From Pseudarthrobacter sp. IC2-21 (GTDB lineage: Bacteria > Actinomycetota > Actinomycetes > Actinomycetales > Micrococcaceae): 64,000 bases of DNA. The notes under the pieces are model-generated. The model worked only from the letters and a program-made list of their open reading frames with translations, was not told the origin of the DNA and searched no databases. The stretch spans positions 1,674,001 through 1,738,000 of the forward strand of contig NZ_CP139145.1 in the NCBI RefSeq assembly GCF_034048115.1, written 5' to 3'. This document shows positions 53,839 through 57,154 of this stretch, in pieces. Position 1 is the stretch's first letter. Each line of letters opens with the position of its first letter. The translations under genes and the position numbers were made by a program.

Positions 53839-54225
53839 CTAGACGTGGCCGAGCAGTTTGCGCAGCGTTTCGGCTTCACTTTCGGTTACGGAACCGATGA
53901 ACTGCGCCAGTACGGCTTCCCGGTCAGGCGCGGAGCCCAGCACCTCATGCATCAGTTCCGCGGTGTGTTCCTCCCGGCTTGAAACCGCCTGGTAGCGGTG
54001 CGGCCTGGTGCCGCGTTCCCGTTCCACAAGGCCTTTCTTTTCCAACCGTGAGAGGACAGTCAGGACCGTTGTGACGGCAAGTTCCTTGCCGGCATGCCCG
54101 GCTGCGTCCCCTTCCGCCTCCGTGGTGGTTGCCAGTCTGTCACGCAGGGTATTTGCGGTGGCTGCTTCGTGGCCCGCCCAGAGCAGGTCCATCACTGCCC
54201 GTTCCAGTTCCCCAAGACTTGCCAT
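53839..54225 (-). CDS. BlaI/MecI/CopY family transcriptional repressor
   Basis: The 128-residue form starting MASLGELERAVMDLLW has the winged-helix pattern of this family: the N-terminal helix, TVLTVLSRLEKKGLVERERGTRPHRYQAV (recognition helix and wing), and a C-terminal dimerisation part with the protease-sensitive AELMHEVLG stretch. AAGGAT precedes the ATG. It is divergent from cydA, and the gap has three 17-bp dyads. With the adjacent M56 protease it resembles the M. tuberculosis Rv1846c-Rv1845c pair. Predicted to repress itself, the M56 gene and cydABDC. Confidence 0.93.
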   Translation of the reverse strand: MASLGELERAVMDLLWAGHEAATANTLRDRLATTTEAEGDAAGHAGKELAVTTVLTVLSRLEKKGLVERERGTRPHRYQAVSSREEHTAELMHEVLGSAPDREAVLAQFIGSVTESEAETLRKLLGHV

Positions 54226-54328
54226 TGCTACATCCTTCTTGTTCCCGCATCCGCCGGCTGAGCGCCGCGGTGCCTGCACATTGTTCGCTACAGATACACC
54301 ACTAAATTTACCTGTTTTTTGGCTGAGT

Positions 54329-54345
54329 TTCTACGTACCGTAGAA
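54329..54345. promoter_or_regulatory. BlaI-type operator-like dyad, copy 1
   Basis: TTCTACG-TAC-CGTAGAA, a perfect 7-3-7 inverted repeat, lies about 104 bp upstream of the BlaI-type gene and 143 bp upstream of cydA. TACNNNNNGTA-type cores fit the general form of BlaI/CopY operators. Confidence 0.75.
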
Positions 54346-54415
54346 CACAGCGTGGGCGGTCGCCTTGTTGGCGGTGCAGTGACGTGCAACTCTTGTTTTT
54401 ACAGTGCCTGCCGCA

Positions 54416-54443
54416 TTGTTCTACACTCTGTAGAAGTTACAGT
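54416..54443 (+). promoter_or_regulatory. Candidate cydA promoter
   Basis: TTGTTC (54416-54421) and TACAGT (54438-54443) are separated by 16 bp. Operator copy 2 lies between them and copy 3 starts at the last base of the -10. Binding at either site should block transcription. Confidence 0.5.
54419..54435. promoter_or_regulatory. BlaI-type operator-like dyad, copy 2
   Basis: TTCTACA-CTC-TGTAGAA, a perfect 7-3-7 inverted repeat, sits inside the candidate cydA promoter spacer. Its centre is 24 bp from copy 3. Confidence 0.78.
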
Positions 54444-54459
54444 TCTACGATTCGTAGAA
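54443..54459. promoter_or_regulatory. BlaI-type operator-like dyad, copy 3
   Basis: TTCTACG-ATT-CGTAGAA, a perfect 7-3-7 inverted repeat, begins at the predicted -10 and ends 28 bp before the cydA start. Confidence 0.78.
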
Positions 54460-54487: not shown

Positions 54488-56083
54488 GTGGAAGCTCTGG
54501 AAATCGCACGCTGGCAATTCGGCATCACCACCGTTTACCACTTCATGATGGTGCCCCTGACTATCGGCCTGGGCCTGGTGGTCGCAGTCATGCAGACCAT
54601 CTGGTACCGGACCGGCAAGGCCGAATACCTGAGGATGACCAAGTTCTGGGGCAAGCTCTTCCTGATCAACTTCATCATGGGGGTTGCCACCGGCATCGTC
54701 CAGGAGTTCCAGTTCGGCATGGCCTGGAGCGAATACAGCCGGTTCGTCGGCGACATCTTCGGCGCACCGCTCGCACTGGAGTCCCTGCTGGCGTTCTTCG
54801 TTGAGTCCACGTTCCTGGGCCTGTGGATCTTCGGCTGGAAACAGCTGAAGCCGGCCATCCACCTCGCCTGCCTGTGGATCGCCGTGGTGGGATCGGTCTT
54901 TTCCGCCTACTTCATCATTGTGGCCAACAGCTGGATGCAGCACCCCGTCGGCGCGGAAATCATCAACGGCCGGCCGGTCATGACCGACGCGTGGGCCGTG
55001 TTCACGAACAACACCGCGCTGGTCGCCTTCCCGCACACCCTGATGGGAGCGCTGGCCGTGGCCGGCGGGTTCCTGCTGGGCATCGCCTGGTACCACCTCT
55101 GGCGCCGGCGCAAGGACGGCATCGACACCATCGGCCCTGACGGCAAGGTCATTCCCGGCGAAGCACCGATCGCCGGCCGCGACAGGACCGACTACAACGT
55201 CTGGATCCGCTCCCTCCGGATCGGCGCCGTCGTCGCCATGATCTCGTTCGCCGGCACCGCCCTCACCGGCGACCTGCAGGGCAAGCTGATGTTTGAGCAG
55301 CAGCCCATGAAGATGGCCGCTGCCGAAGCCGCCTGCCACGACGGCACCGGCTTTTCGGTCCTCAGCGTCGGCAACCTCGGCTCCAAGAACTGCGACGACA
55401 TCACGGCAGTGATCGAAGTGCCGGGCATCCTGTCCTTCCTTGCCAAGGGCGACTTCACCACTGAGGTCAAGGGCGTCAACAGCCTCCTGGACCAGTACAA
55501 GGCCGACTACGGCACCCACCTGCCGGACAACCCGATCTACGGTGAACGGGCCGGCGCCGAAATCCAGTACGTCCCCGTCATGGAAGTCACGTACTGGGGC
55601 TTCCGGATGATGATCGGCTTCGGCGGACTGGCGGCGATGGCAGCTCTCGTGGCCCTCTGGCTGACCAGGAAGGGAACCGTCCCCGCGTCGCCCTGGCTGA
55701 TGCGTCTGGCGGTGTTGGGCATCCTGGCCCCCTTCGGTGCCAACGCCGCCGGCTGGATCTTCACCGAAATGGGCCGTCAACCGTTCGTGGTTGCGCCCAA
55801 CCCGGACCTGAACGGCATTGACCAGGTGTTTATGTTTACGGCAGCCGCCGTTTCGCCCGGCGTGTCCGCCGGCGAACTGCTGACCTCGCTCATCGTCCTG
55901 GCCGCGGTCTACGGCGCCCTGCTCGTGGTGGAGGTCAAACTCCTGGTCAAGTACATCCGCGGCGGCGTGGTCTCTGCCATGCCGGAACTGGTGCAGGCGC
56001 CGGCGGACGAGAACGAGGACGGCACCCCGGGCCCCGGCGGCACCGCCAAACCCGCCGATGACGTCCTGGCATTCGCCTACTAA
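54488..56083 (+). CDS. cydA: Cytochrome bd ubiquinol/menaquinol oxidase subunit I (CydA)
   Basis: CydA carries the three hemes of the bd-type terminal oxidase in the cell membrane. The 531-residue form begins with GTG (VEALEIARWQFGITTVYHF), with GAGGGA upstream. A longer frame from TTG at 54461 would add nine residues starting beside operator copy 3 and has no support. His18 is the expected heme b595 ligand. The protein has the segments KFWGKLFLINFIMGVATGIVQEFQFGMAW and MGRQPFVVAPN. A Q-loop region lies at about 235-360. cydB and cydDC follow. Confidence 0.97.
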   Translation: MEALEIARWQFGITTVYHFMMVPLTIGLGLVVAVMQTIWYRTGKAEYLRMTKFWGKLFLINFIMGVATGIVQEFQFGMAWSEYSRFVGDIFGAPLALESLLAFFVESTFLGLWIFGWKQLKPAIHLACLWIAVVGSVFSAYFIIVANSWMQHPVGAEIINGRPVMTDAWAVFTNNTALVAFPHTLMGALAVAGGFLLGIAWYHLWRRRKDGIDTIGPDGKVIPGEAPIAGRDRTDYNVWIRSLRIGAVVAMISFAGTALTGDLQGKLMFEQQPMKMAAAEAACHDGTGFSVLSVGNLGSKNCDDITAVIEVPGILSFLAKGDFTTEVKGVNSLLDQYKADYGTHLPDNPIYGERAGAEIQYVPVMEVTYWGFRMMIGFGGLAAMAALVALWLTRKGTVPASPWLMRLAVLGILAPFGANAAGWIFTEMGRQPFVVAPNPDLNGIDQVFMFTAAAVSPGVSAGELLTSLIVLAAVYGALLVVEVKLLVKYIRGGVVSAMPELVQAPADENEDGTPGPGGTAKPADDVLAFAY

Positions 56084-56104: not shown

Positions 56105-57154
56105 ATGGAACTGCTGCCCACCATCTGGTTCGTCATCATTGCGGTGCTCTGGACCGGTTACCTTTTCCTTGAAGGCTTCGATCTCGGCGTCGGAATGCTG
56201 ATGAAGCTGTTCGCACGGAACAACACTGAACGCAGGGTGCTGCTGAACACGGTCGGCCCGGTCTGGGACGGCAACGAGGTCTGGCTGATCACGGCCGGCG
56301 CGGCCACTTTCGCGGCGTTCCCGCTCTGGTACGCCTCGCTCTTCTCCGCGCTCTACCTCCCCCTCCTGGTGGTCCTCGTGGCACTGATCTTCCGCGCCGT
56401 GGCTTTCGAGTACCGGGGCAAGGTGGACGATGACAGCTGGCGGGCACGCTGGGACTGGGCCATCGCCCTGGGCTCCTTCTTCGCCGCCTTCGGCGTCGGC
56501 GCGGCGCTGGCACTGACCACCACGGGCCTGCCGCTGAACGCAAACGGCGACCGTGAAGGCGGAGCGATGGCGTGGTTCAGTGGCTACGCCGTCCTGGGCG
56601 GACTGGCCGTGGTGGGGTTCTCCCTGCTCCATGCCCTGGCCTTCCTCGCCTTGAAGACCGACGGCGACATTCGGCACCGGGCCCGTGCCTGGTTTGTCCG
56701 GCTGCTGCCCGTCCTGCTGCTTCCCCTGGCCGCCTGGGCGCTGGTCATCCAGTTCCTGGCGGGCGAGCTGTGGACCTGGGCCGCCGTGGTCCTGGCAGTC
56801 GTGGCAGCTGTCGTGGCGTGGTTCCAGGCCCGGCGCGGAGCCGAGGGCCACGCGTTCATGGCCATGGGAACCTTCCTGCTCCTGGGCAGTGCCTCGATCT
56901 TTGGCGCCGTGTTCCCCGTGGTGCTGCCCTCCACCCTGGACCCGGCGTTTGACCTGACCATTGCCAACGCGTCCTCCTCCGATTACACCCTCGGCCTCAT
57001 GAGCGTGGTGGCGGCGGTGGGCCTTCCGCTGGTGATCGTGTACCAGGCCTGGACGTACTGGGTGTTCCGCCGCCGCGTCAGCGCGGCGCACATCCCGGAG
57101 GCCCACAGTTTCCTGCCGGCAGTGGCCGTCAGGGCATTCACCACGAAGGGCTGA
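56105..57154 (+). CDS. cydB: Cytochrome bd oxidase subunit II (CydB)
   Basis: The 349-residue membrane subunit that pairs with CydA. It opens MELLPTIWFVIIAVLWTGYLFLEGFDLGVGML, the family signature with the conserved acidic residues, and continues VGPVWDGNEVWLITAGAATFAAFP. Eight to nine membrane segments are expected from the hydrophobic pattern. It begins 21 bp after cydA and ends 6 bp before cydDC, so the genes form one operon. Confidence 0.97.
   Translation: MELLPTIWFVIIAVLWTGYLFLEGFDLGVGMLMKLFARNNTERRVLLNTVGPVWDGNEVWLITAGAATFAAFPLWYASLFSALYLPLLVVLVALIFRAVAFEYRGKVDDDSWRARWDWAIALGSFFAAFGVGAALALTTTGLPLNANGDREGGAMAWFSGYAVLGGLAVVGFSLLHALAFLALKTDGDIRHRARAWFVRLLPVLLLPLAAWALVIQFLAGELWTWAAVVLAVVAAVVAWFQARRGAEGHAFMAMGTFLLLGSASIFGAVFPVVLPSTLDPAFDLTIANASSSDYTLGLMSVVAAVGLPLVIVYQAWTYWVFRRRVSAAHIPEAHSFLPAVAVRAFTTKG

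Follow-up and report, generated by a model that had tools for sequence, protein, structure and literature searches.

The closest described relatives of the system analysed here are BlaI (Rv1846c) and BlaR (Rv1845c) of Mycobacterium tuberculosis. According to the excerpts of published work used here, M. tuberculosis BlaI binds the promoters of cytochrome bd and ATP synthase genes (PMC5473688, citing Sala et al. 2009), and both EMSA binding and repression by mycobacterial BlaI have been described at the Rv1303 (ATP synthase) promoter (PMC12565901). The atp genes are also named as BlaI targets elsewhere (PMC7924339, PMC8265638, PMC5874750), as is sigC (PMC8265638), and the mycobacterial BlaR is described as lacking a sensor domain (PMC5473688). 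In the excerpt of PMC5473688, a BlaI–cytochrome bd link is therefore already in print for one species, and the statement in a sequence-only reading of the present locus, that the M. tuberculosis homologue touches bioenergetic genes, is borne out second-hand by the same source citing Sala et al. 2009.

The system described below resembles the M. tuberculosis pair in repressor family (best PDB match 2g9w), in its sensor-less BlaR and in having cytochrome bd and ATP synthase genes among its putative targets (PMC5473688, PMC12565901, as excerpted). The M. tuberculosis regulon is described in these excerpts around blaC, sigC and ATP synthase, whereas here no operator dyad was found at the β-lactamase-family gene, cyd is adjacent to and divergent from blaI, the operator is of a TTCTAC type, and the putative targets further take in heme, cytochrome c and flavohemoglobin genes. 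Unlike BlaI/BlaR1 and MecI/MecR1 of Staphylococcus aureus, whose targets are blaZ or mecA, it has no extracellular β-lactam sensor domain and its putative targets are respiratory genes. With the copper repressor CopY it shares the superfamily and a weak match to the CopY_TcrY model, which at 26.1 bits is far under the 121.95-bit cut-off, and in place of copper export its neighbours and putative targets have to do with cyd and respiration. In the literature searched, neither the operator and its conservation nor the wider respiratory regulon was found described.

A repressor gene and a sensor-less protease gene face the cyd operon

The window, i.e. the whole 64-kb stretch of DNA analysed, contains a blaI gene, the gene of a BlaR-like protease and a cydABDC operon (Table 1). 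The blaI product matched PF03965 (Penicillinase_R) over residues 4–125 with 74.9 bits against a cut-off of 22.6 bits (E 8.2e-21); its best solved relative is 2g9w (E 4.5e-16), which we take to be M. tuberculosis BlaI. None of its 128 residues is a cysteine. The protease scored 44.6 bits with Pfam M48, over the cut-off, and 25.1 bits with M56, under the 31-bit cut-off. Its structural model (pLDDT 91.6) found S. aureus BlaR1 as the best solved match and shows a zinc protease embedded in the membrane, with HExxH and a fold like that of BlaR1. This match spans only BlaR1 residues 1–290. In BlaR1-type proteins, a sensor domain of about 250 aa follows the protease. No C-terminal extracellular β-lactam-binding sensor domain is present here, as the 328-aa protein ends after its last hydrophobic helix. 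The 42 homologous proteases all have HExxH and measure 249–404 aa (290–340 aa in 36 cases); 41 are too short for a BlaR1-type sensor domain, and the remaining one (L305) is cut by a contig end. On the opposite side of the gap, the assignment of cydABDC rests on PF01654, PF02322, TIGR00203, TIGR02857 and TIGR02868, all over their cut-offs. A single reading frame encodes CydD and CydC as a fusion, with both models over cut-off.

Table 1. Features of the blaI–cydA locus, with positions counted in the window
Feature	Position	Strand	Basis or remark
blaR-like membrane metalloprotease gene, 328 aa	52845..53831	-	HENAH at residues 182–186
blaI, BlaI/MecI/CopY-type repressor gene, 128 aa	53839..54225	-	PF03965, 2g9w
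candidate blaI -10, TAAATT	54305..54310	-	by eye; 5/6 columns invariant in 34 gaps
dyad 1, TTCTACGTACCGTAGAA	54329..54345	.	putative blaI-side operator; exact match
dyad 2, TTCTACACTCTGTAGAA	54419..54435	.	putative cydA-side operator, holds -10-like hexamer; exact match
candidate cydA -10, TACACT	54422..54427	+	inside dyad 2; promoter scan, consensus match only
dyad 3, TTCTACGATTCGTAGAA	54443..54459	.	putative cydA-side operator, just 3' of the inferred start point; exact
cydA, cytochrome bd subunit I, GTG start	54488..56083	+	PF01654, 503.5 bits
cydB, cytochrome bd subunit II	56105..57154	+	TIGR00203, 286.3 bits
cydDC, fused thiol-reductant ABC exporter, 1183 aa	57161..60712	+	TIGR02857 + TIGR02868

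Three dyads in the divergent gap are neither chance nor confined to it

The sequence-only reading had placed three perfect 7-3-7 dyads in a 262-bp gap between the divergent genes, the second and third 24 bp apart. All three are exact where it put them and are the sole zero-mismatch matches of that pattern in the window, and both distances were measured as claimed (blaI ATG at 54225 on the minus strand to cydA GTG at 54488 on the plus strand; 24 bp start to start for dyads 2 and 3). The 7-3-7 form holds in the window but not in relatives, where the seventh arm position varies (for example TTCTACGTACGGTAGAA in L022). We therefore dropped the strict form and take the conserved unit to be 6-N5-6, TTCTAC-N5-GTAGAA.

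Under Markov models (order 1–3) trained on the window, 5e-7 to 4e-6 exact copies of this unit are expected per gap and 0.008 to 0.06 across the whole genome of 4.27 Mb. Not one of 50,000 simulated sequences based on the dinucleotides of the gap itself contained it, which rules out chance as the origin of the dyads. The whole genome holds eight exact copies vs one for a reversed control pattern, and since five of these lie elsewhere, outside the gap, the site is not confined to blaI–cydA. Allowing up to one mismatch gave 14 matches in this genome vs 13 for the reversed control, so this looser pattern was rejected as a genome-wide definition and one-mismatch sites were accepted only with tested conservation. 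Six one-mismatch sites are present in the genome: the conservation test covered the two at ATP synthase and sucC, which both passed, and the other four candidates lie at G000 1252434, 1713423, 2027990 and 2124405.

The dyad arms are invariant within the genus

A BlaI match at 83–100% identity was found in 36 of 37 genus genomes, the missing one being a 68%-complete genome, and 35 of these 36 carry three exact dyads between blaI and cydA. The exception (G014, L032) lacks cydA in the locus and keeps one dyad at blaI. We ran the comparison of blaI–cydA gaps across the genus that the sequence-only reading had proposed, on 34 gaps, leaving out L032 and L035 (a 985-bp gap). The dyads were present and all 36 columns of their arms were invariant, compared with 19 of 211 columns outside the dyads. 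Only three of the 15 centre columns were invariant, all of them the ACT of dyad 2, which is consistent with the overlapping -10-like TACACT. A TTTACA at 54398, paired with this hexamer, is less conserved in the same gaps. In L035 an insertion splits the gap, such that one dyad remains with blaI and two with cydA, and the same split is seen in L177, with one dyad at blaI and the dyad pair at cydA across a 3.8-kb gap.

An operator over the -10 region and just downstream of the start point is the usual layout for repression by occlusion. Dyads 2 and 3 lie in this way with respect to the candidate cydA promoter, and dyad 1 overlaps a minus-strand -35-like hexamer, found by eye, of the candidate blaI promoter, whose -10 TAAATT was not reported by the promoter scan.

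The dyads follow BlaI

The loci used for linkage were the best 80 of 580 BlaI loci in a scan of named genomes, all 80 distinct. Among these, a protease gene accompanies blaI in 80/80, cydA is divergent from blaI in 71, and at least one exact dyad lies in the gap or within 400 bp upstream of blaI in 78, i.e. a palindromic TAC-N-GTA operator at the repressor's own gene, as is characteristic of the BlaI family. The nine loci without adjacent cydA all keep the dyad at blaI, seven exactly and two with one mismatch. Eight of the nine corresponding genomes were searched further: in three, cydA lies elsewhere and has two exact dyads upstream (3/3), and in the other five there was no cydA match at all and the dyad was still found at blaI. 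Within the same order (26 genomes, BlaI presence decided by a search at E 1e-12), an exact dyad occurred in 0/14 genomes without BlaI vs 9/12 with it. The three BlaI genomes without an exact dyad all belong to family f17, and the one helix read there (L328) is of the M type described below.

Across the class, 211 of 345 genomes had a BlaI match. For a selection of loci among the matches listed, leaving out 14 loci fetched twice, the divergent cydA–blaI arrangement was seen in 10/10 loci of f19, 10/10 of f38, 13/14 of f45, 5/7 of f36, 1/12 of f35 and 0/18 of f22; in f53 (two loci), blaI lies ahead of cydA. Family f22, with g32 probably the mycobacteria and kin, has cydA in 23 of 24 genomes, with an upstream dyad at 0–1 mismatch in 23/23 (five exact). 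Its blaI locus is without cydA in 15/23, and the best BlaI match is on another contig in 8/23. Every exact TWCTAC-N5-GTAGWA site lies at blaI–cydA in five genomes from three families (G056, G346, G042, G391 and G305), and the exact sites of G323 lie solely at blaI and at cydA on another contig. In G112, three exact TACTAC-type sites lie at neither gene.

Operator type is associated with a residue of the BlaI helix motif TTV-x-TVL. When this residue is L, the arms are TTCTAC in 126 of 128 loci with a core dyad (two ties); when it is M, they are TACTAC in 25 of 27 (two others), and none is reversed. These counts come from 195 distinct loci after removal of three duplicates, of which 39 had no strict core dyad and one (L222) no readable motif. 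In a tree built from 42 selected BlaI rows, L/M and TT/TA form one split, so the association is not independently replicated, although f36, which lies outside the order, combines the L helix with the TT operator. The footprint, linkage, absence and helix–operator comparisons, all made on sequences, strongly point to BlaI as the probable reader of the dyads.

The same operator marks a putative respiratory regulon

Exact sites were fully listed for 10 of the 37 genus genomes. Of their 75 sites, 30 are at blaI–cydA and the other 45 are all at the same five places: hemQ (10/10 genomes), a histidine-phosphatase gene facing yceI and leading a run of ResA-like, CcdA-like, ResB and CcsB genes (10/10), a membrane-protein gene with no assigned name (10/10), a flavohemoglobin gene (hmp) beside an Rrf2/NsrR-type gene (9/10) and a pyridoxamine-oxidase-like gene (6/10). 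These names rest on matches to HemQ_actino, a ferrochelatase behind hemQ, His_Phos_1, AhpC-TSA, DsbD_TM, ResB, ccsB, YceI, a globin with FAD and NAD domains, Rrf2 and Pyridox_ox_2; the model for NO-inducible flavohemoprotein scored under its cut-off. The membrane-protein site lies between two genes without a Pfam or NCBIfam match (L008:1055-1510 / 1533-2123; G000 4180515). In the hmp/nsrR intergenic region (L011:6769-6785; G000 721768), the dyad is near a second palindrome-like stretch, GCATTTCGAATGC. This is possibly an NsrR site, and two regulators may act at this one promoter.

Both tested one-mismatch sites were present in every locus fetched. One lies between wecA (Glycos_transf_4; matched in 31/37 genus genomes) and a gene of the Cg1360 family, associated with ATP synthase (30/30 loci fetched), and the other precedes sucC (ATP-grasp_2, Ligase_CoA; matched in 36/37 genus genomes; 30/30 loci fetched). 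The Cg1360-family match is 41 bits against a 40-bit cut-off, and we read the gene as lying ahead of atpB. At this site a TAGAAT overlaps the right arm of the dyad. No such ATP synthase site is present in f19 (0/2), f45 (0/3) or f35 (0/2); it is absent in four of eight non-g32 f22 genomes and has two or four mismatches in f36. It is present in 12/12 g32 genomes and overlaps the wecA stop codon in 10 of them, where its conservation may be due in part to coding constraint.

Other families add sites of their own. In f19, exact sites precede the flavohemoglobin gene (L369 and, by our own reading, L370) and genes read as cydD (L372, L378). In f36, TTCTAC-type exact dyads lie just upstream of hemE (L342, L359), a second heme gene besides hemQ, and one exact site is in a copC region (L358). 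Exact sites of f35 are at a TlpA-like/CcdA-like pair (L364) and at a Rieske protein gene (L363). The heme, cytochrome c maturation, flavohemoglobin, ATP synthase and sucC sites make the unit a probable respiratory-chain regulon, and these sequence comparisons strongly suggest that BlaI would control cyd as part of it. The sequence-only reading had proposed that the repressor–protease pair controls cydABDC for oxidase choice. Control of cyd by BlaI is what the sequence tests support, and oxidase choice proved too narrow, because the same operator marks these other genes.

Proposed mechanism and alternatives

We consider it highly probable that, taken as a whole, the system works as follows. A dimer of the adjacent BlaI would bind all three dyads. 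The layout of operators and promoters suggests that dyad 1 would mediate autorepression of blaI–blaR, and that dyads 2 and 3 would mediate repression of cydABDC by covering the -10 region and the stretch just past the start point. The same operator would control hemQ with the heme genes behind it, the ResA/CcdA/ResB/CcsB genes and flavohemoglobin, and weaker copies of the dyad would control ATP synthase and sucC. The pairing of the protease gene with blaI suggests proteolytic relief, in which the BlaR-like protease would most likely cleave BlaI upon a membrane or respiratory signal. Judging by the target set, this signal would be the respiratory or membrane state, and the missing sensor domain argues against direct sensing of β-lactams.

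The site between hmp and the Rrf2/NsrR-type gene and the mostly respiratory target set would also fit a different respiration regulator, for example Rex-, CRP- or NsrR-like, with blaI a mere neighbour of its dyads. We regard this as very improbable, given the retention of the dyad at blaI without adjacent cydA, even in the five of eight searched genomes that have no cydA, the 14 of 14 BlaI-less genomes without an exact copy, the distribution of sites in G323 and the tracking of operator type with the BlaI helix. The sequence-only reading had tied the pair to a membrane or cell-wall signal. A classical β-lactam response, with cyd induced incidentally when the protease senses damage to the cell wall, would agree with the rise of blaR–blaI and cydAB transcripts under amoxicillin–clavulanate in M. 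tuberculosis (PMC5473688, as excerpted). A cell-wall or β-lactam signal was not supported here: the proteases, 41 of 42, are too short for the sensor, the structural match stops at BlaR1 residue 290, and the sole Beta-lactamase2-family match in the genome has no dyad within a 3.5-kb locus (best, four mismatches). We accordingly judge it improbable, though less so than a different regulator.

Relief without the protease, in which a small molecule, metal or redox change would directly alter DNA binding, is the least improbable of the alternatives and still unlikely. It draws on CopY, structurally related to BlaI and inhibited by Cu(I) (PMC5772342, as excerpted), on the heme genes among the targets and on the copC gene near a dyad in one f36 genome; against it stand the constant company of a protease gene in the best 80 of 580 loci and a BlaI devoid of cysteine. 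BlaI repression with protease relief remains our preferred account. On a broader proposal we are evenly divided: BlaI and the sensor-less BlaR may fundamentally be a regulator of how actinobacteria assemble the respiratory chain, one that covers cytochrome bd, heme, cytochrome c maturation, ATP synthase and NO detoxification and senses the condition of the membrane or of the electron transport chain, the mycobacterial β-lactam role being a later side branch.

With this operator code, the targets of a widespread, little-studied repressor become readable in the genomes of actinobacteria. Cytochrome bd is grouped with the genes for heme, cytochrome c and ATP synthase in a single regulon, and the question of which signal the sensor-less BlaR proteins sense becomes directly testable in soil bacteria that are harmless.

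Variant operators

The strict core dyad was lacking or poor in 41 loci. No operator with up to one mismatch was found at blaI in nine of them: L319, L320 and L321 (f22), L292 (f45), L304 (f35), L309 (f36), L123 and L328 (f17) and L120 (f6). The operator-less f17 and f6 blaI loci adjoin cyd genes; in f17 (L123, L328), blaI and the gene for its protease follow cydDC and are not divergent from cydA, again without a recognised operator. The other 32 have an operator with at most one mismatch near blaI, mostly TACGAC-N5-GTAGTA. In f38 (L276, L312–L315, L335 and L336), seven of the eight gaps examined carry TACTAC-N5-GTCGTA and TACGAC-N5-GTAGTA in tandem, 22 bp apart, and these mixed operators represent a different operator flavour.
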